Shown piece by piece: positions 54,305 through 64,000 of a stretch of 64,000 bases of DNA; position 1 is the stretch's first letter; the number at the start of each line of letters is the position of its first letter. The DNA is from Pseudodesulfovibrio sp. S3 (GTDB taxonomy: Bacteria; Desulfobacterota; Desulfovibrionia; Desulfovibrionales; Desulfovibrionaceae), in assembly GCF_004025585.1 (NCBI RefSeq), contig NZ_QTZO01000005.1, positions 62,001 to 126,000 on the forward strand, read 5' to 3'. Both the position numbers and the translations under genes were made by a program. Below the pieces are notes generated by a model. The model had not been told where the DNA came from and searched no databases. It saw only the letters and a program-made list of their open reading frames with translations.

Positions 54305-56488
54305 ATGAGCGGATACCAGACTCGTCAGAACGCAATCAATGCGGTGACCAATTACAAACCCACCAACGGCCCCCTGAATTTTGCGGAGACCTCTCCGGAG
54401 CAGGTTTTCGGGTCCAACGTTTTCACCGACAAGGTCATGAAATCCATGCTTCCGGGGGATGTCTACAAATCCCTGATGAAGACCAAGAAAACCGGCGAGA
54501 AAATGGACCCGTCCATTGCCGGTCCCGTTGCCGCCGCCATGAAGGAATGGGCTCTGTCCAAGGGCGCAACCCACTATACCCACGTTTTCTATCCGCTGAC
54601 CGGCCTGACCGCCGAGAAACACGACGGCTTTCTTTCCCCTGACGGCGAAGGCGGTGCCTTTGCCGAATTTGACGGCAAGCTGCTCATTCAGGGCGAGCCC
54701 GATGCCTCCAGCTTCCCGTCCGGCGGCCTGCGCGCCACCTTCGAAGCCCGCGGCTACACTGCCTGGGACGTGACCAACCCGGCCTATATTTTGGAAAACC
54801 CCAACGGCACCTTTTTGTGCATCCCCACTGCTTTCGTTTCCTGGAAGGGCCATGCACTGGACAAGAAAACCCCGCTGTTGCGCGCCAACCAGGCCCTGAA
54901 CAAGGCCGGTCGCCGCTTCCTGAAAGTGTTCGGCAATGACGACGGCAACATGGTCGTGTCCAACGCCGGTCCCGAGCAGGAATATTTCCTCCTTGATCGC
55001 AATTTCTACTTTGCCCGTCCCGACCTGATGGTTTGCGGACGCACCCTGTTCGGTGCCAAGCCCTCCAAGGGCCAGGAACTGGACGACCACTACTTCGGCG
55101 CCATCCCGCGCCGGGTGCTGGCCTTTATGCTGGAAGCCGAGCGCGAGCTCTACAAGCTCGGCGTGCCCGTCAAGACCCGTCACAACGAGGTGGCTCCGGG
55201 CCAGTTCGAGATCGCGCCTGTCTTCGAGCAATCCAACCTGGCCACTGATCACAACCAGATGATCATGACCATCCTGAAATCCGTTGCCAAGAAATACGGT
55301 ATGGCCTGCCTGCTGCACGAGAAGCCCTTTGCCAACATCAACGGTTCCGGCAAACACCTGAACTATTCCATCTCCACTCCCACCCAGGGGTCGCTGTACT
55401 CTCCGGGCAACACCCCGCACAAGAACATGCAGTTCCTGGCCGTGACCGCCGCCACCATCCGCGCCGTGGAAAAATATTCCAAACTGCTCCGCGCTGCGGT
55501 CGCTTCCGCCGGCAACGACCATCGTCTGGGGGCCAACGAAGCGCCTCCGGCCATCATCTCCATCTTCCTGGGTGAAGAGCTGGCCGAGATATTCAACCAG
55601 ATCGAACTGGGCGACCTCAAGGGCTGCACTTCCAAGGGGTGCCTGGAATTGGGCGTCGATACCCTGCCTTCCCTGCCCATGGATTCCGGCGACCGCAACC
55701 GCACCTCGCCGTTCGCCTTCACCGGCAACCGCTTCGAGTTCCGCGCCGTGGGCTCCAACCAGTCCATTGCCGGTGCCCAGGTCGCACTGAACACCATCAT
55801 GTCCGAGTCCCTGGACTTTGTTACCGACGAGATCCTGAAGATCACCGGCGGCAAGAAGGCCAAACTCAACGAAGCCTGCCAGACCGTCATCCAGGGCATC
55901 ATGAAGAAACACGGCCATATCATCTTCAACGGTGACGGTTACGCCGATGCGTGGCAGAAGGAAGCGGCCAAGCGTGGCCTGCCCAACCTGAAGACCACCC
56001 CGGATGCGTTGCCCTGCCTGACCGATGACGACATCGTGGCCGTCTACGAGAAGTACGGCGTCCTGAGCAGGGAAGAGCTGGAATCCCGCAAGGAGATTTT
56101 CTTCGAGCAGTATAACCAGCACATACAGACCGAGTCCCTGCTGGTAGTCAAGATAGGCAAGACCATCATCCTGCCCGCAGCCATCCGCTACCAGGGCGAG
56201 CTGGCCACTGTCGCCGCCTCCATCAAGGCCGCCGGCGTCGAGCCTCGCATCTCCTTGCTGCAGGAAGTCACCGACAAGTTGCGCGACCTCCAGGCCAATA
56301 TCGTGGCCCTGGAAAAGATCATCGCCAAGGAGGACTTCGCCTCGGTAGAGGACGAAGCCAAGTACAAGGTCTCCAAGACCCTGCCCGCCATGCTGGCTGT
56401 CCGTGAAGTCGCCGATACCCTGGAAGGTATCGTGGCCGACGACATGTGGCCCCTGCCCAGCTACCAGGAGATGCTCTTCATCAAGTAG
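54305..56488 (+). CDS. glnN: Type III glutamine synthetase (GlnN)
   Basis: Makes glutamine from glutamate, ammonia and ATP; 727 residues, the size of type III enzymes and well over the 450-470 of type I. Visible landmarks: [12 protein letters not shown] near the start, [22 protein letters not shown], the metal/substrate segments [17 protein letters not shown] and [29 protein letters not shown] and [24 protein letters not shown] precedes the ATG. It is monocistronic, with an A+T-rich upstream region carrying inverted repeats and a sigma-54-like promoter, and a strong terminator after it. Confidence 0.96.
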
Positions 56489-56509: not shown

Positions 56510-56547
56510 AAAGGCTCCGGCGCGGTTGCGCCGGAGCCTTTCTTTTT
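56510..56547 (+). terminator. Terminator after glnN
   Basis: AAAGGCTCCGGCGC pairs perfectly over 14 bases with GCGCCGGAGCCTTT around GGTT, then TCTTTTT. Confidence 0.9.
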
Positions 56548-56664: not shown

Positions 56665-57108
56665 TCAGTCACTGTTTTTTATGATCAATCCTTCGGCCTT
56701 GGAGCCGTCGTCGGTCCATTCCATTTCGATGGCGCATTTGGCCTTGTCCTTCTTGCGGGCGAGCTTCAGTTCCACTTCCATGGTGTCGGCCACGCCGAGG
56801 ACCAGGGTTCCTTCCTCATTTTCCGCGCGGATGACGCCGGACTCCAGAGACCGGGTCAGATCCTTGAGGTAGGCGACGACCTGTGCGGTGTCCATGGTCT
56901 GCTTGATCTTGATCTTGCCTTTGCCCATCTGATCCTCCTTGGTGATCGTCCCGGCGGGTTGGAAAAATCCGCTCGACATGCCGTTGAAGGCTCCGGCGGT
57001 AGGTCTGTTGTCGGAGGCGGTATCGGGAGTCCGCTCATCCCTGGGCAGGGCGGTGTTGGGCGCGACCCAGTTCAGGGGATTGGTTCCGAGCCGTTTGTCG
57101 TCGCTCAT
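56665..57108 (-). CDS. Amphi-Trp domain protein with ParA-linked N-terminal segment
   Basis: A 147-codon frame with two possible products. Its first ATG overlaps the parA stop (ATGA) and begins DDKRLGTNPLNWVAP, a short polar segment of the kind found after ParA genes. A second in-frame ATG at 56928, behind AAGGAGG, gives an 87-residue amphi-Trp protein alone. The domain (about 65-140) has the alternating amphipathic pattern VVAYLKDLTRSLESGVI ... IEMEWTDDG, ending near a conserved Trp. Two paralogues lie in the same operon. Function unknown. Confidence 0.75.
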   Translation of the reverse strand: MSDDKRLGTNPLNWVAPNTALPRDERTPDTASDNRPTAGAFNGMSSGFFQPAGTITKEDQMGKGKIKIKQTMDTAQVVAYLKDLTRSLESGVIRAENEEGTLVLGVADTMEVELKLARKKDKAKCAIEMEWTDDGSKAEGLIIKNSD

Positions 57109-57860
57109 GGAATACCTCTGCGAAGCAGTTCCAGGGCCAGGTTGCGATAGTCCGAGGCCCCGTTGCTGCGGGGTTTGTAGGTGAAGATGTCCTGGCCGAA
57201 ACTCGGAGCCTCGGCCAGGGAGATGTTGTCCCTGATGCTCGTCTCCAGCAGGGCATCGCCGAAATAGTCCTTGATGTTGCGCCGGATCTCCCGGTTGAGT
57301 TTCTTGGTGCGCTGGTATCGGGTCAGCAGGATGCCGGTCAGGGCCAGGCCGGGGTTCCAGCCGCCCTGAATCGCGCCCACGGTTTCCATGAGTTTTCCCA
57401 GGCTTTGCAGGGCGAGGAATTCCGGCTGCACGGGCACCAGCAGTTCAGAGGCAGCGACCATGGCGTTGAGGGTGAGCAGCCCGAGGTTCGGGGGGCAGTC
57501 GATGAGGACGAAGTCGTATCCGGCAACCGTTTGCAGGGCGGTTCGAAGACGGGTCTCGCGGTTGTCCGTTCCTGCCAGATCGACCTCGGTGCCTGCCAGT
57601 GCCACGGAGGCGGGCACCACATGCAGGCCTCCCCGCTCCATGGTCACGTCCGACAGGCCGCAGTCCTGCATCAGGGCTGCCCCCATGGTGCGCGGCAGTT
57701 CATGGGCCATGACGCCCAGGGAATATGTCAGGTGCGCCTGGGGGTCGAGGTCGAGCAGCAGCACCTTCCGCTCCTGGCGCATCAGGGCTGCCCCCAGGTT
57801 CACCGTGGTGGCCGTCTTGCCCACTCCGCCCTTCTGGTTGAGTACTGCTATGATTCGCAT
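57105..57860 (-). CDS. ParA/MinD-like ATPase
   Basis: ATPase of 251 residues with deviant Walker A KGGVGKTATT, Walker A' LLLDLDPQAH and Walker B VLIDCPPNLG. In size and motifs it is a small chromosomal ParA that positions cargo on the nucleoid or forms dynamic gradients. No ParB gene or parS site is seen, and it lies inside the GAK operon rather than near an origin, so its cargo may be a product of that operon. It overlaps the next gene by four bases. Confidence 0.92.
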   Translation of the reverse strand: MRIIAVLNQKGGVGKTATTVNLGAALMRQERKVLLLDLDPQAHLTYSLGVMAHELPRTMGAALMQDCGLSDVTMERGGLHVVPASVALAGTEVDLAGTDNRETRLRTALQTVAGYDFVLIDCPPNLGLLTLNAMVAASELLVPVQPEFLALQSLGKLMETVGAIQGGWNPGLALTGILLTRYQRTKKLNREIRRNIKDYFGDALLETSIRDNISLAEAPSFGQDIFTYKPRSNGASDYRNLALELLRRGIP

Positions 57861-57887
57861 TCCGCTCCCGGTGCGTGCCGTGTGCTT

Positions 57888-58070
57888 TTAGTGGGTGTTT
57901 TGCAGGACAATTTTCTTGAGCACGTAGTCCCGGCCGAACCTGTCGGTCAGGGAATTGATTTTTTCCAGGAATTTGTCGCGGTCCTGCTCCAGCATTTCCG
58001 AGCTTTCCTGAATGCCGAAAAGGTCGACGACCTCATTCCAATCAAAGGATTCGTTGTAGCTGTCAGTCAT
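57888..58070 (-). CDS. Small acidic hypothetical protein in the GAK operon
   Basis: A protein of 60 residues, helical and acidic (FDWNEVVDLFGIQESSEMLE), ending in a more basic helix VLKKIVLQNTH. AAGGG precedes the ATG at workable spacing. It lies 31 bases after the second amphi-Trp gene and 27 before parA, so it is part of the operon. No family recognised; it could be a ParA partner. Confidence 0.7.
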   Translation of the reverse strand: MTDSYNESFDWNEVVDLFGIQESSEMLEQDRDKFLEKINSLTDRFGRDYVLKKIVLQNTH

Positions 58071-58101
58071 GATTTTTCCCTTGAAGCGGATTCTGCCGCG
58101 T

Positions 58102-58527
58102 TCATTTTTTGTTGCCGGCAGTCGGAGCTGCCTTGTTTTTTTTGGGCTTGGGCTTTTTCTCTTTGGATTTCTTTGCCGGAGCCTTGGACGGCTCCACCTT
58201 GGCAGGTACTTCCGCCTTCTGTTGGGTTGCCGGGACTTCAGCCGGTTTTCTCTCGGCGGGCACGCCTGCGGGCTCCCTGTCGCTGATCTTGAGATCGGCG
58301 GCGTCTGCATCGTTCCAGGCGATCTCAAAACCGATTTTCTGCTTGTCCTTCTTGGTCTTGGCTTCCACCTTGATCGAGACCTGGCCCGAGGGTTTCATGA
58401 CCACATGATCCTCGCCGGATTCAATGACTATGGTGCCGGACTTGAAGCTCTTGGTCAGGGCCTCCAGGTAGGCCACGGCATCTTCGTATTCCAGGGTCTT
58501 TGTCACGCCGACTTTCTGTTTTTCCAT
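58102..58527 (-). CDS. Amphi-Trp domain protein with Lys/Pro/Ala-rich tail
   Basis: A protein of 141 residues. Residues about 5-72 form the amphi-Trp domain (AVAYLEALTKSFKSGTIVIE, then IGFEIAWNDAD with the conserved Trp). The rest is a low-complexity tail of Pro/Ala/Glu repeats (AEVPATQQKAEVPAK) ending in a very basic stretch with many Lys. Such a tail may bind nucleic acid or an acidic polymer. AGGAGG precedes the ATG. Paralogue of the proteins at 56665 and 63395. Confidence 0.8.
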   Translation of the reverse strand: MEKQKVGVTKTLEYEDAVAYLEALTKSFKSGTIVIESGEDHVVMKPSGQVSIKVEAKTKKDKQKIGFEIAWNDADAADLKISDREPAGVPAERKPAEVPATQQKAEVPAKVEPSKAPAKKSKEKKPKPKKNKAAPTAGNKK

Positions 58528-58556
58528 GCCAGTTCCTCCTTGCACGGGTTGCGCCG

Positions 58557-59741
58557 TCAGCATAGCGACAGCAGAATTTCGCTCAGGCATTTCGCGTCGA
58601 TATACGGCGCGCTTTCTTTGGTCACCAGCGGGGCGTCGATCACTGTCAGTCCCCGTTTTTCAAGTTCCTTCGGGTCCAGGCCTCCCGGATATTCCCCGTG
58701 TGTGCCGTCCACGAGCACGTGCCCCAGAACGTCCGACCCGGTCGGCGCGCCGCTCGCCACGAGAGATCTGCGCAACATGTCCGCACGGGCTGTTACGCTC
58801 ATGTTCGGGGTTTCCGGGTCAACGCTGGTGTTGGGAACAAAAATCTTGGGGCAGGGGTTCCTGGCCACGGCCTTGCCCACGCCGTCGGGCAGGAGATTGG
58901 CGACCACGCTGGAAAAGAAGCTGCCCGGGGGGTAGCAGATCAGATCCGCCTCAAGGATGCGCTCCGCCACCTTGCGGCGGATGGCGGGCTGCACCGGGTC
59001 GACGGAGTTCAGGGACTGTGTCAGCCAGATGTCCTTGATGGGCGAGGCGAGCGGAGCGGATTCCTTGCCGGTGATCTGATGCTGGCCGACTATTACCTGC
59101 CCGTTTTCGAGCCGGACAGCCAGGTGCAGGTCCTTGTTGATGGTGGGCCGGACCAGGCCGCAGACCTGGACCAGTTTGGAAAAGAGGAAGATGACAGGGT
59201 CCATCTGCCGGCGGTTGGACAGGTAACCTGCGGTCAGGACGAGGTTGCCCAGACTCGCGCCCTTGAGGTTGAAATCCTCGGGCATCAATTCCACGAATTG
59301 GTGAAAGTGGTTGCGGATGATCTTGCGCATGGGGTCCGGTACGCGTCGGATCAGGGGATGCTTGCCCGAGGCCAGGGTGTCCAGTTCCCGGCGCAGGTCC
59401 GTCGGAGTCGCCGCTTTCGGGAGGCGGTGGGCGAACAGGTCGAATATGGCCGGGTTGCCCAGTACGGACTGGTCGGCCAGGGCCATGAGCCGGTTGCGGA
59501 TGTCGCCCACGGCGGGCATGCCGAAGGCCTGCCGGAGGATGGCCGAGCTGCCGCCCGAGTCAAAGGGCGTGATCAGGTGGATGGAATTGTGGGTGTACCG
59601 GATAAGCGCGCGGGAGGTGTCGCGCAGGGCCGTGCCTCCACTGAAGAACAGGATGGACGGTCCCAGCTCCGGGGTGCGTCTGTACCGCTCCAGTTTTCGT
59701 GGGTCGGGGATTTCGACATCCCGTGTGACACGTACGCGCAT
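58557..59741 (-). CDS. CofD/YvcK-like protein, GAK system
   Basis: A protein of 394 residues of the CofD/YvcK superfamily, whose members bind sugar-nucleotides or transfer phospholactate-like groups. Seen: FFSGGTALRDTSRALI, HLITPFDSGGSSAILRQAF and MPAVGDIRNRLMALAD near the N terminus, then ADLICYPPGSFFSSVVANLL and KIFVPNTSVDPETPNMSV. It matches the GAK-specific branch rather than YvcK (longer, with extra insertions). GGAG precedes the ATG. Substrate unknown. It lies ten bases after the HprK-like gene. Confidence 0.9.
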   Translation of the reverse strand: MRVRVTRDVEIPDPRKLERYRRTPELGPSILFFSGGTALRDTSRALIRYTHNSIHLITPFDSGGSSAILRQAFGMPAVGDIRNRLMALADQSVLGNPAIFDLFAHRLPKAATPTDLRRELDTLASGKHPLIRRVPDPMRKIIRNHFHQFVELMPEDFNLKGASLGNLVLTAGYLSNRRQMDPVIFLFSKLVQVCGLVRPTINKDLHLAVRLENGQVIVGQHQITGKESAPLASPIKDIWLTQSLNSVDPVQPAIRRKVAERILEADLICYPPGSFFSSVVANLLPDGVGKAVARNPCPKIFVPNTSVDPETPNMSVTARADMLRRSLVASGAPTGSDVLGHVLVDGTHGEYPGGLDPKELEKRGLTVIDAPLVTKESAPYIDAKCLSEILLSLC

Positions 59742-59751
59742 ACGATCTCCG

Positions 59752-60846
59752 TTAACTCACAAGTTCGCCGGTTTCCATGTACTTGAGACATATATCGGAT
59801 GCCTGCTCAAAGTCCACTCCGCCGGAGATCTCGACAAGATCGGTCTTTTGCAACAGTTTGGCGTAGGCGTCCATGTCCGGGTCGCATTGCCTGTCCTGGT
59901 TTTCGGGCAGGTAGAACAGGCCGGTGGATTTCATGAACGCCGGGAGCAGGTCCTTTCGTTTCATGGGGTCAACCATGGCCGTTCTCATGGGGCCGCCGCT
60001 CCGTGTCCAGTTGAGGATGACCAAGGCGTTCATGGGGCTGCGCAGCTCGAATTTTCCCGGTCCGTAGCACTCGTCGATGAGGGCATCATACTTGTGCTCC
60101 AACTGCCAGAGTTTATCCGAGGGCATGTCCAGAAACTCATCGCGTAGATCCGGTTCCACAATGCCGTTCAGATCGGGATTGTGCAGGGCGGTGCCGGGGT
60201 TGATGCGGGGCTGTTTGGCCACGCCGTACATGGTCAGGCCGTCACCGTTCTCTTCGACCATGATGCGGTCGTTGCTGACGAAGGTGGTGCCCTTGCTCAT
60301 GAGGTGCAGTGCCAGGGTGGACTTGCCTGCACCCGAAAAACCGGCCAGGGAAATACCCCGCCCGTTATGGATCACACCGGCCGCATGGCCGAGAAAACCG
60401 CCCCGGTTGAGCTTCCACTCGATGAACCGGTTGTTGATGAAATTGATGACCTGGTTGCTGTTGTCCAGGCAGGGGCCCACGGCCACGTTCTCGCCCTGGC
60501 CGAACAGGAAGTGCATCCCGGTGAGCCGTTTGCGCACGACGCGACCGTCGGGCAGGTCCGCCCATTCTTCCTTGATCCTGGTCTTGCCGGAATCGGGCTG
60601 CTTGACGTTGAAGTCGAGGCGCATTTCCGGCGAGGGTGTTTCGTGGGCGGAAATGACGATTTCCGGGATGCCCTGTTCCGTGACGAATTCCTTGAAGTAG
60701 CCCGCCAGGGCTGCATGGAGCTCGTCCGAAGAGCTGTTCGCCTGGATGATGCAGCCGCCGAAGTGGAGGAGCAGTTCCCGTGTGGCCGGGGCGGCCTCCT
60801 TGATTTCGGCTGCCAATTCCTTTCGAGTGGTGCCGGTCAGCTTCAT
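59752..60846 (-). CDS. HprK-related kinase, GAK system
   Basis: A protein of 364 residues. The kinase core (about 150-300) has HprK-like P-loop GFSGAGKST (169-177) and a following FVSNDRIMVE segment, where HprK has its conserved phosphoacceptor-handling residues. N-terminal 140 residues are GAK-family specific (GLN-poor, with HFLFGQGENVAVGP). True HprK phosphorylates a Ser of HPr; no HPr gene is here, so the target is probably another operon product. Its start overlaps the ATP-grasp gene stop by four bases (ATGA). Confidence 0.9.
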   Translation of the reverse strand: MKLTGTTRKELAAEIKEAAPATRELLLHFGGCIIQANSSSDELHAALAGYFKEFVTEQGIPEIVISAHETPSPEMRLDFNVKQPDSGKTRIKEEWADLPDGRVVRKRLTGMHFLFGQGENVAVGPCLDNSNQVINFINNRFIEWKLNRGGFLGHAAGVIHNGRGISLAGFSGAGKSTLALHLMSKGTTFVSNDRIMVEENGDGLTMYGVAKQPRINPGTALHNPDLNGIVEPDLRDEFLDMPSDKLWQLEHKYDALIDECYGPGKFELRSPMNALVILNWTRSGGPMRTAMVDPMKRKDLLPAFMKSTGLFYLPENQDRQCDPDMDAYAKLLQKTDLVEISGGVDFEQASDICLKYMETGELVS

Positions 60847-61715
60847 CTGATGTTCTCCATGACGTAGTCAACGTATCGTGCGGCCGCGTCGATGCCGCTG
60901 GTTTCCTGAATGCCTCGGAACCCGCCGAAAACCGAGACCTCGAAGACGTACGGGCCGTGGTCGGTGATGGCCACGTCCACGCAGGTGAAGTCGAGGTTGA
61001 AGTCGGCCTGGGCCCTGCGGGCCAGTTCGATGATTTCCGGGGAAGGTTCGTAGGCGCGGTACTTGCCGCCCGAGGCCGTGGTGGTGTTCCAGGCTCCGTT
61101 GGTCTTGCATCGGGAGTAGGTGGTCAGGTATTCGCCGCCCAGAAAGGCGATGCCGAGGTCGAGTTCTCCCAGGTCGATGGTTTTCTGGATGTACATGATC
61201 GGGTTTTCCGCCTTGTACTTCTCGACGGCGGCCCGTGCATCCGGGCTGTGTTCGAGCACGAACATGCCCCGTGCCTTGGAGGTATAGAGCGGCTTGAATA
61301 CGGCCTCGCCGTAGTCGGCCACGGCGATCAATGCCTGGTCCACGCTCTCGGTGATGGTCGTGGGCGGCATGGGGATATCCTTGAGTTGCAGGGAGATGGT
61401 GCAGGAAAGCCGGTCAAGGGCCCGCAGGATGGAGTAGGGCGAACTGAATATCTTCAGTCCTCTTTCATGCAGATAGCGCAGGATTTCCAGTCGATCCAGG
61501 AGGTCCGGCGAGTAGCGTGCCCCGATCTTCTTGATGATGAGCGCGTCGAAATCCGTGAGATTGTGGCCGTTGTAGTAGGCGTTGCCGGACGGCAGGTCCA
61601 GACGGACATCTTCCATGTTGATGAGCACGCGTTCGCCGCCGGTTTTTTCCGCGACAGTGTCGGCCAGCTTTTCGGACGACCAGCCGCCTTCAATACCTAT
61701 GACTCCGATTTTCAC
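60843..61715 (-). CDS. ATP-grasp (RimK-like) enzyme, GAK system
   Basis: A RimK-like ATP-grasp enzyme of 290 residues, a fold that usually joins an amino acid to a carboxylate with ATP. Segments: IKKIGARYSPDLLDRLEIL, SSPYSILRALDRLSCTISL, AVFKPLYTSKARGMFVLE and CVDVAITDHGPYVFEVSV before FGGFRGI (RimK has an Asn-Pro-Gly variant there). GTG is chosen as start: AAGGAG lies seven bases before it, and only one base before the ATG two codons upstream. Substrate unknown; a small partner protein is plausible. Confidence 0.88.
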   Translation of the reverse strand: MKIGVIGIEGGWSSEKLADTVAEKTGGERVLINMEDVRLDLPSGNAYYNGHNLTDFDALIIKKIGARYSPDLLDRLEILRYLHERGLKIFSSPYSILRALDRLSCTISLQLKDIPMPPTTITESVDQALIAVADYGEAVFKPLYTSKARGMFVLEHSPDARAAVEKYKAENPIMYIQKTIDLGELDLGIAFLGGEYLTTYSRCKTNGAWNTTTASGGKYRAYEPSPEIIELARRAQADFNLDFTCVDVAITDHGPYVFEVSVFGGFRGIQETSGIDAAARYVDYVMENIR

Positions 61716-61733
61716 GAGCATGCTCCTTGTGGC

Positions 61734-63389
61734 CTAATAATAGAGGACGTCTTCGGGCAGAGTGAAATGTTCCCACTTGCGGCCCCGGTAATCGTGTATC
61801 TTTTCCAGCAGGAATATGGACCGGTTGTACAATTCCTTGGCGAATTTGTAGTTCAGTTCGAACCGCGTGGAGGTGTAGAAGGATCGGGCCAGGGCAAAGG
61901 CCATGCGCGCCTCCAGGGTGTGGTCTTCGTGCTGTTCGGCAAAGCCCTTCACGAATCCGTAAAATTGTCTGATCACGCTGTTGATCCTGTTCCGGTGGTC
62001 GGAATCGAAGAGCGGGATGCGGAAGTTGGAAACCAGGAAGACGGAAGCGTCCTGGACGTAGTCGAAATCGCGCGAGCGGTAGAGATCGATGTAGTGGACC
62101 TGCTGGGCCTCATGGTTGTAGACCACGTTGTTGATGTTGAAATCGCCGTGGATGAAGACCGAAAAGGGCGCTTCCAGTTCGTTTTCGATATCGGCGCAGG
62201 AGCTGAGCAGCCGTTCGGTGGATTTCACCTCGGAACCGCCCAGGGTCTTGGGGGTGCGCCAGAACTCCGGGTGGGTCTGGAGAACATCGTCCAGCCTGGA
62301 CTGGAGTTGCCCGATGTAGTTTGTCTTGACCGGGAAATGTTCCATGGTCGTGGTCCAGGTCTCCAGCACCGTGCTTTCGAAGATGAACAGGGCGTTGCCC
62401 ACGAACTCGTCGTCGCCGGACAGGACCACCTCGTCCAGGGTGCAGCCGTTGAGAAATTCCACCAGCATGGAGCCCTTGTCCGCTTCCTCGTGGAAACCGT
62501 AGATGTCGGCCACCAGGTCGGGGAAGGCCTGCTTCCAACGCTTGATCGACTCCCGTTCCTTGCGGATCTTTTCCAGGTTGCCTTCCTTGTAGATGGACCC
62601 CTGCTTCCTCCTTTTGGAGGTGTTCTCGGGGGTGTCGCGCGGTTCGACCTTGCCGATGCGGCAGCCGGACCGGGTACCCCAGATGGCGCTGAAGTCGATG
62701 TCGGAAAAGGAGTCGCTGAACCCGGACTTGGACAGGGTCTGCTGCAGGGCTTCGAATTGCTCTATCTTGATCCGTTCGCCCAGAAGCGAGAATATGATCG
62801 CCTCGCCGACATTCAGGAGTGCGTCGCCCACCCGCTCCAGATAGCGGAATATGAAGATCACGGTTATCAGGCTCTGTGCTTCCCGGCCCATGCCCATCTC
62901 ATTCATCACCCGGTCAAACAGGACCTTGTATGCATCGTCCAGCAGGGGTTCGGCCTTGCAGATGAACAGGGCCTTGGACATGTTCTCGGTGCGGAAGGCC
63001 TCCAGGATGACGGCCAGTCGCCCCAGTATGATGTCGAAGACTTCGTTGAAGTCGTAGCGCAGGATGAACGACTGATCGTCGAGATATTGCATCTGCTTGA
63101 CGATGTTGACGAAATAATCGGCGATCTTCTCGAGATTCACGCACATGACCTGCATGGCGCGGATCTTGTTGAGCTGGTTCTTGTCCAGGGTGCGGTCCGA
63201 GTGGATGCGCGAGTAGCACTTGTTCTCGATGATGGTCTTGAGGTTGTCTATGTAGTCGTCGCGCGAGGTGATTTTCGAATACCGCTTCCTGGACGGTGAA
63301 GCCAGGAACTTGCGCGTGCTGCGTGCCTGATTTTCCACTTCGAGGACGATGAACTTGAAGTTCTCGTCCAGCCCTTCGAATGTGACCAT
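61734..63389 (-). CDS. PhoU-like/aminoglycoside phosphotransferase-like fusion protein
   Basis: A protein of 551 residues with two parts. N-terminal 230 residues are PhoU-like helical bundles (LEKIADYFVNIVKQMQ; YLERVGDALLNVGEAIIFSL). The C-terminal 280 residues are an APH/choline-kinase fold with catalytic HGDFNINN (His414, Asp416) and IDLYRSRDFDYVQD (Asp435), both intact. The fusion suggests a small-molecule or sugar kinase controlled by a PhoU-like module. No pst or pho genes are nearby. It lies five bases after the third amphi-Trp gene. Confidence 0.88.
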   Translation of the reverse strand: MVTFEGLDENFKFIVLEVENQARSTRKFLASPSRKRYSKITSRDDYIDNLKTIIENKCYSRIHSDRTLDKNQLNKIRAMQVMCVNLEKIADYFVNIVKQMQYLDDQSFILRYDFNEVFDIILGRLAVILEAFRTENMSKALFICKAEPLLDDAYKVLFDRVMNEMGMGREAQSLITVIFIFRYLERVGDALLNVGEAIIFSLLGERIKIEQFEALQQTLSKSGFSDSFSDIDFSAIWGTRSGCRIGKVEPRDTPENTSKRRKQGSIYKEGNLEKIRKERESIKRWKQAFPDLVADIYGFHEEADKGSMLVEFLNGCTLDEVVLSGDDEFVGNALFIFESTVLETWTTTMEHFPVKTNYIGQLQSRLDDVLQTHPEFWRTPKTLGGSEVKSTERLLSSCADIENELEAPFSVFIHGDFNINNVVYNHEAQQVHYIDLYRSRDFDYVQDASVFLVSNFRIPLFDSDHRNRINSVIRQFYGFVKGFAEQHEDHTLEARMAFALARSFYTSTRFELNYKFAKELYNRSIFLLEKIHDYRGRKWEHFTLPEDVLYY

Positions 63390-63394
63390 AATTG

Positions 63395-63661
63395 TCAGCT
63401 CACCGTGAGGGCGGTCGATTGCGAGGAGAGGGCCGATGCGTTCTCCTTCCAGGCAATTTTGATGGAGAGCTTGTTCTCATTGCCCTTTTTCCTGGCCTTG
63501 ACCGTGAAGCTGAGAAGACCCTTGGGGGAGAGGTGGATTTCGTCGCCGTTGGTATCCAGGGTGATGGAGCCCTTGTCGAACCCCTCGGTGAGTGCCTGCA
63601 AAAAAGCCTTGATGGTGTCGCTGTCCTGCAGCGAATCGAAAATGAACTTGTCATCTGCCAT
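63395..63661 (-). CDS. Amphi-Trp domain protein, third paralogue
   Basis: A protein of 88 residues consisting almost only of the amphi-Trp domain: TIKAFLQALTEGFDKGSITL, a short hairpin around LSPKGLLSFTVKA, and KLSIKIAWKENA with the conserved Trp, then a Ser/Thr tail. GAGGAAG precedes the ATG. It is the shortest of three paralogues in the operon and the closest to the upstream end. Confidence 0.82.
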   Translation of the reverse strand: MADDKFIFDSLQDSDTIKAFLQALTEGFDKGSITLDTNGDEIHLSPKGLLSFTVKARKKGNENKLSIKIAWKENASALSSQSTALTVS

Positions 63662-63680
63662 GTCTGTGCTTCCTCGGGGA

Positions 63681-64000
63681 CTAGCCTGCCAGGCGGTCCG
63701 TGTATTCCTTGATGATGGTGCGTCTGGAAATGTTGTTGACGATGAGTTGCTTGCGAACACTCAGGTCGTCCCAGGCGGGTTGCAGCCCGATCTCGCGGGC
63801 TGCCTTGGCTTCATCCTGTTGATCCGCAGGTTTGGTTTTTTCGCCCATGTGGCAGTCGTCTCCCATGAACACGAGCATGTCGCGCCTGGAGTCGCGCCGC
63901 GCGTTTTGTTCGTTGACCACGGAGATGAGAAACTCGGTGTATTCCTGGGATTGCGGGTTCCAGACCTCGATGCCGTCCACGTCGTAGTTGCGGAGCAGGA
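63681..64000 (-). CDS. PHP-like protein, C-terminal fragment
   Basis: At least 105 C-terminal codons of a gene that begins beyond the right edge; no start is inside the window. The fragment reads DVDGIEVWNPQSQEYTEFL, then LVFMGDDCHMGEK, a sequence with the DxH spacing and GD-C-H pattern of PHP-type metal-dependent phosphoesterases, followed by a Lys/Asp-rich stretch and SVRKQLIVNNI. It lies 19 bases upstream of the amphi-Trp gene and looks like part of the GAK operon. The assignment is tentative because most of the protein is missing. Confidence 0.55.
   Translation of the reverse strand, partial: LLRNYDVDGIEVWNPQSQEYTEFLISVVNEQNARRDSRRDMLVFMGDDCHMGEKTKPADQQDEAKAAREIGLQPAWDDLSVRKQLIVNNISRRTIIKEYTDRLAG

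Follow-up and report, generated by a model that had tools for sequence, protein, structure and literature searches.

The GAK operon of the sulfate-reducing bacterium Pseudodesulfovibrio sp. S3, located at the end of the 64,000-nucleotide stretch analyzed here (the window; G000:C5:62001-126000 in a 3.68-Mb genome), is likely to have a phosphate-related role. With more reserve, we favor the explanation that GAK provides a phosphate-rich store that is independent of polyphosphate kinases (PPK) and replaces polyphosphate in bacteria without these enzymes. Linkage to pstB, exclusion with PPK1 together with the absence of PPK2, accessory genes acting on phosphate esters and Pho-box-like repeats agree in connecting GAK with phosphate.

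Analysis of the operon revealed every gene named in a preliminary description of this DNA, all on the minus strand and separated by gaps of 5 to 31 bases, as well as the two ATGA overlaps reported there (ATP-grasp/HprK-like genes, 60843-60846; ParA/amphi-Trp genes, 57105-57108). The ten genes counted previously are all present, but the operon does not start at the PHP-like gene as had been assumed. An XXXCH gene (TIGR04358, 98.3 bits, cut-off 40) precedes it at a distance of 24 bases and lies beyond the window (L004:8867-9394); this gene is the first of eleven. The GAK label proved correct, since all five NCBIfam model families were matched far above their curated cut-offs and in the usual order. 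Three matches to amphi-Trp (TIGR04354; 67.4, 66.1 and 55.0 bits, cut-off 31) were obtained, and these three genes at the GAK locus are the only amphi-Trp genes of the genome. Pfam matches in the operon comprised a PhoU plus EcKL/APH fusion, RimK, Hpr_kinase_C, CofD and AAA_31/ParA. The closest named relatives of the HprK-like protein (75 to 79% identity) belong to Pseudodesulfovibrio and other Desulfovibrionaceae.

The co-occurrence search for the families, which had been proposed to form a joint system, revealed about 80 loci from several phyla in which they stand together in fixed order. The joint-system view, which would have failed if the families did not co-occur elsewhere, is thus supported, as it is by the conserved active sites described below. 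This recurring gene order indicates that the operon is conserved far beyond chance. The typical order is XXXCH, PHP-like, amphi-Trp type A, PhoU/APH, ATP-grasp, HprK-like, CofD-like and amphi-Trp type B, with XXXCH sometimes in last position. Most loci are from Desulfobacterota; rare ones are from Myxococcota, Chloroflexota and Gammaproteobacteria. HprK_rel_B exceeded its cut-off in 15 of 198 genomes of the phylum and in 123 of 297 genomes of the class. Elsewhere it was found in 4/296 genomes of the order of Catenovulum, 1/301 of Chloroflexota and 1/189 of Myxococcota, each of these three sets including the genome that defined it. A minimal version in Catenovulum and Dehalococcoidia consists of PhoU/APH, ATP-grasp, HprK-like and amphi-Trp genes. 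The PHP-like and PhoU/APH genes are kept in nearly all loci and have no GAK model of their own. The literature searched contained no published function for GAK and no paper naming amphi-Trp or GAK.

Linkage to phosphate uptake was determined in 69 GAK-positive genomes, in which pstB was counted only above its curated cut-off and within 10 kb of HprK_rel_B. Such a pstB gene was present in 10 of the 69 genomes, compared to 0.5 expected (Poisson P of about 2e-10 before correction for relatedness). These cases represent 8 genera and 3 families and show several arrangements and orientations, with pstB-phoU often directly upstream of GAK. Relatedness makes this P value too small, but in our judgment not to an extent that would remove the effect. 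Two genomes with a full GAK operon also carry a second, diverged HprK-like gene right behind pstB-phoU (L181 in G221, and G228:C1:736780-739401); in L181 this gene is followed by a CofD-like gene.

GAK was detected in 123 and PPK1 in 58 of the 297 genomes of the class, and no genome contained both, with 24 expected (Fisher P of 3e-16 over genomes). Within each of two genera (g3 and g168), GAK and PPK1 occur in different members. PPK2 was found in none of the 23 GAK-positive genomes tested and in 12 of 17 PPK1-positive genomes. The genome to which the window belongs yielded no match to PPK1 (TIGR03705) or PPK2 (PF03976).

These distributions also bear on the possibility that GAK regulates phosphate homeostasis. 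A small phosphorylated messenger, comparable to the inositol pyrophosphates of eukaryotes, would be made and would be sensed by the PhoU-domain and amphi-Trp proteins and would control Pst uptake. A kinase with a fused PhoU domain, the adjacency of pstB-phoU (including the second HprK-like/CofD-like pair behind it) and the sporadic distribution of the operon would all suit such a regulator. However, the exclusion of PPK1 and the absence of PPK2 suggest a bulk function, and a messenger pathway would not need as many as three or four amphi-Trp proteins, nor basic tails or a ParA. We therefore regard a purely regulatory role as unlikely.

Further support for the phosphate link was obtained from genes that accompany GAK in distant loci. 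A phosphoglucomutase gene lies beside the HprK-like gene in two rare loci (L044 and L056), and others (L043, L095-L097) contain NUDIX/His-phosphatase, His phosphatase or calcineurin-type metallophosphoesterase genes. These accessory genes, which act on phosphate esters, provide a third line of evidence. Pho-box-like direct repeats of 11 bp were found upstream of 13 of 79 loci and in 5 of 142 control promoters. Enrichment was confined to spacing 11; spacings of 9, 10, 12 and 13 showed none. The threshold for these counts was set after the data had been seen, and two of the five positive controls are promoters whose site also belongs to a divergent GAK operon. Because of this post hoc threshold and the lack of a site in the window's own promoter, the repeats are the weakest line of the phosphate evidence.

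The operon was also identified in Desulfovibrio gigas. Genome G226 was assigned to this species since its rubredoxin is identical to D. gigas rubredoxin at 52 of 52 residues (full-length match to PDB entries 1rdg, 1e8j and 2dsx) and its rubredoxin:oxygen oxidoreductase (ROO) is identical to PDB entry 1e5d at 402 of 402 residues. In this genome, pstB-phoU lead straight into XXXCH on one strand, followed by the PHP-like, amphi-Trp, PhoU/APH, ATP-grasp, HprK-like and CofD-like genes. Neither PPK1 nor PPK2 was detected in D. gigas at the thresholds used. The granule material of D. gigas is said, after work by Hensgens et al. in 1996, to be alpha-glucose 1,2,3,4,6-pentakis(diphosphate), and to our knowledge no gene has been tied to this compound. 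Phosphorus-rich granules of D. gigas have long been known (Jones and Chambers 1975, as cited in PMC9239181), and D. alaskensis G20 forms phosphorus-rich, electron-dense granules that are lost under phosphate limitation (PMC5193443). The D. gigas granule was described as a compound and not as a gene system, and the organism has the complete operon. In view of the phosphate-uptake neighbors, the exclusion of PPK1 and the presence of the operon in D. gigas, GAK is a good candidate for the gene set, missing so far, by which D. gigas forms and positions its granules.

The active sites of the GAK enzymes were found to be invariant or nearly so across loci. The PhoU domain fused to an APH/EcKL-like kinase (61734..63389, minus strand, 551 aa), in which intact HGD-N and IDL motifs had been noted before, conserves the catalytic residues H414-G-D416, N421, D435, K268 and E278 (80 sequences). 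The HprK-related kinase B (59752..60846, minus strand; TIGR04355, 545.4 bits, cut-off 200) has the intact P-loop GxGKS that had been noted, which is invariant together with H154 and N192-D193-R194 (94 sequences). The gene of the PHP-like protein, a putative metal-dependent hydrolase, extends beyond the window, in which its C-terminal part lies at 63681..64000 on the minus strand (full gene, 386 aa, L004:7682-8842). It contains the invariant metal motifs H65xH67, TQH97, GxE110, H274 and DD329xH331 in the PHP order (73 sequences), and a Pfam PHP gene occupies its slot in a Dehalococcoidia locus. These two observations are consistent with the PHP identity proposed earlier, but the protein had no Pfam, NCBIfam or PDB-profile match and hhalign found no match between it and the Dehalococcoidia PHP protein, so the assignment is by motif only.

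The grasp_GAK enzyme (60843..61721, minus strand; TIGR04356, 446.8 bits, cut-off 300) is a relative of RimK/MptN ligases and resembles them over its whole length (PDB entry 4iwx, 81.6 bits). Residues K143, R204, D249 and E261 are near-invariant among 87 sequences. In contrast to the RimK/MptN ligases, the E-x-N metal motif reads E261-V262-S263 in all 87 sequences, the last metal ligand being replaced by an invariant serine. All members have FGG in place of SPG, and the ATP-loop GTQGIGV is replaced by TSKARGM. Because the last ligand is a serine in every member, classification of the enzyme as a RimK-type ligase is not appropriate.

The CofD/YvcK-like protein (58557..59741, minus strand) matched the GAK model TIGR04357 with 544.2 bits (cut-off 340) and the YvcK model TIGR01826 with 123.7 bits. 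It has an invariant GG and DSGGSS, a motif of the nucleotide-sugar type (69 sequences). Similarity to CofD (Pfam, 140 bits) and of the ATP-grasp enzyme to MptN (142.9 bits) could suggest that the operon carries out CofD-like and CofF/MptN-like steps toward a cofactor related to F420 or tetrahydromethanopterin, unconnected with phosphate storage. We consider this highly improbable and rejected it, as the scores remain below the equivalog cut-offs. The MptN cut-off of 350 was not reached, and the CofD-like protein keeps DSGGSS and fits the YvcK model rather than a CofD equivalog. No other F420 or methanopterin genes were seen in GAK loci, and a cofactor pathway gives no reason for the linkage to phosphate genes.

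Comparison of the amphi-Trp proteins revealed two main types, a short type A encoded before PhoU/APH and a type B encoded after CofD. In the window, type A (63395..63661, minus strand, 67.4 bits) has 88 aa and no tail. Type B (58102..58527, minus strand; TIGR04354) bears a Lys/Pro/Ala-rich, histone H1-like tail with a net charge of +11. Type B tails are often rich in these three residues (43% of tail residues), and at least 20 of 57 type B proteins were judged strongly basic by eye from the list. An AlphaFold2 (AF2) model of type A (pLDDT 87.5) consists of one helix and four strands, and a Foldseek search of the PDB yielded no match at E below 1. One more amphi-Trp-like domain makes up the N-terminal part of XXXCH (hhalign probability 95.8, E 7.8e-9). 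Its C-terminal part is a bundle of four helices similar to cytochrome c', in which the heme-ligand CH dipeptide is kept at about the corresponding position and the first cysteine is absent; K88, K89, M123, C170 and H171 are invariant. A redox or cytochrome role for XXXCH was rejected on account of the absent first cysteine and a helical-bundle Z of about 11.7, below the telling level of the tool, and no heme role is claimed.

These proteins had been proposed as possible substrates of the operon's enzymes, the alternative being a small molecule. According to this explanation, the HprK-like kinase would phosphorylate and the RimK-like ATP-grasp enzyme would glutamylate amphi-Trp or another partner, and ParA would localize the result. 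HprK in known systems acts on a protein serine, the closest relatives of the ATP-grasp enzyme are RimK/MptN ligases, and a serine lies within the motif S[LMFV][QH]D of 62 of 73 type A proteins, which leaves room for such a modification. However, W71 is the sole invariant residue among 43 amphi-Trp domains compared; no serine, threonine or C-terminal acceptor is invariant, which speaks against a common modified residue. The terminus of the type B tails is not conserved either, the E-x-N metal motif of the ATP-grasp enzyme is altered, and the linkage to pstB-phoU and the exclusion of PPK1 are left unexplained. Modification of amphi-Trp proteins is thus disfavored, and we rate protein or peptide modification as the function of GAK quite unlikely.

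The ParA-type ATPase (57105..57860, minus strand, 251 aa; family match) has the deviant Walker A motif KGGVGKT. It is followed by the gene of amphi-Trp protein C (56665..57108, minus strand; TIGR04354, 55 bits), which consists of the N-terminus RLGTNPLNWV, a disordered-looking linker and an amphi-Trp domain. Among the 15 loci of the window's own genus, 12 have ParA together with the RLGxNPLxW motif on the last amphi-Trp protein, and the other 3 have neither. A link between ParA and an amphi-Trp protein is thus supported for this genus, but not as a general statement. ParA as a core part of GAK was rejected, since it is missing from nearly all loci outside the genus and is thus an add-on. The RLGTNPLNWV sequence is a candidate ParA-docking peptide. 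As in McdA/McdB, a ParA-type cargo positioning system, and in other such systems, the ParA gene adjoins that of a putative adaptor with a conserved N-terminal peptide; in contrast to them, this peptide is fused to an amphi-Trp domain.

The linker between the motif and the amphi-Trp domain is variable (54 to 78 residues). An internal Shine-Dalgarno sequence (AAGGAGG) and an in-frame ATG (window position 56928, minus strand) mark the boundary between linker and domain. Both elements were present in all ten parsed loci, one of them a duplicate (besides this locus, L030, L128, L131, L134, L135 and L138-L141), and an in-frame methionine was found at this boundary in the four unparsed loci. This conserved start makes two protein forms from one gene possible: the last gene may encode a long form that would dock on ParA and a short form that would serve as coat (possible isoform at 56665..56928, minus strand).

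From this evidence we infer both the granule itself and every biochemical step that would lead to it. A small carrier, for which a sugar phosphate is most likely, would receive phosphoryl groups from three enzymes, namely the PhoU/APH kinase, the HprK-like kinase and the ATP-grasp enzyme. The role of the CofD/YvcK-like protein would be to provide or detect a nucleotide-linked sugar, and that of the PHP-like enzyme to free phosphate from the store. Binding of the polyanion, and coating or condensation of the granule, would fall to the amphi-Trp proteins, among them type B with its basic tail and the amphi-Trp-like domain of XXXCH. In the window's genus, ParA would dock on the RLGxNPLxW motif of the last amphi-Trp protein and space the granules over the nucleoid. 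Such a store would resemble those of PPK1 and PPK2 in being phosphate rich and linked to pst-phoU; in contrast, the GAK enzymes have other folds, and no PPK is present in the window's genome or in D. gigas. AlgP of Pseudomonas aeruginosa is a histone H1-like factor that spaces polyphosphate granules (PMC9239181). Type B is likewise a small protein with a tail rich in Lys, Pro and Ala and would sit on a phosphate polyanion, but its folded domain (amphi-Trp) is unrelated. The five families are those of the catalogued GAK system (TIGR04354-TIGR04358), in the usual order. That catalog lists them without a function; the locus studied here adds the PHP-like and PhoU/APH genes and the genus-limited ParA module.

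The product of GAK is possibly, though doubtfully, a glucose polydiphosphate. As a tentative extension, GAK could carry out the biosynthesis and granule packaging of glucose pentakis(diphosphate) or a close sugar polydiphosphate, with an amphi-Trp coat and, in one genus, ParA spacing through a two-form adaptor. Under this extension, about 40% of the sampled Desulfovibrio-class genomes would encode the pathway, and its sugar polydiphosphate might be regarded as the organic equivalent of polyphosphate.

Several observations weigh against a phosphate-rich store. No pstB gene lies inside 10 kb in 59 of the 69 genomes. The exclusion between GAK and PPK1 partly tracks clades and habitat, with a Fisher P of only 0.04 over genera, and 116 of the 297 genomes have neither system. 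No canonical Pho box was found in the window's own promoter, where a TGTnAC pair recognized by eye has a spacing of 10 and not 11. A neutral or acidic tail is found in many type B proteins. The ATP-grasp enzyme is nearest to peptide or cofactor glutamate ligases and not to inositol-phosphate kinases, and the literature searched contained no biochemistry or imaging of any GAK protein.

Other features of the locus were recorded as well. A conserved protein of 60 aa (57888..58070, minus strand) is encoded in the GAK loci of the window's genus and of one near relative. The operon is closed by a strong, terminator-like hairpin of 14 pairs (56510..56541; L004 511-542), which lies between it and a gene on the opposite strand. 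The convergent open reading frame at 54305-56488 (plus strand, 727 aa) resembles a type III glutamine synthetase by eye only. Divergent from the operon is a gene of the 5'-nucleotidase/NAD-nucleotidase type (L004:9587-11314, plus strand), a phosphate-scavenging neighbor; this family (u9) is found beside GAK in five loci (also in L133, L135, L139 and L160). About 5 kb upstream, galT, galactokinase, LacI-type regulator and galM genes (L004:14252-18745, plus strand) gave no sign of belonging to the operon. ATP-grasp and HprK-like pairs apart from PhoU/APH were observed in L077 (G260:C125), L074 and L152, one of them beside a P-type cation ATPase gene; these pairs could represent a second type of GAK system. 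An anti-phage defense role was rejected, as PADLOC returned no meaningful match.

The preliminary description included neither the XXXCH gene nor the link to phosphate uptake, and it mentioned neither the exclusion of PPK1 nor the presence of the operon in D. gigas. For years the GAK families have stood in the catalog with no function assigned, and the granules of D. gigas have been known without genes. If the proposed explanation is true, an orphan operon and an orphan metabolite would explain each other, and bacteria without polyphosphate kinases would have another way of storing phosphate and energy. The ParA variant would then represent a new cargo for the ParA positioning family.

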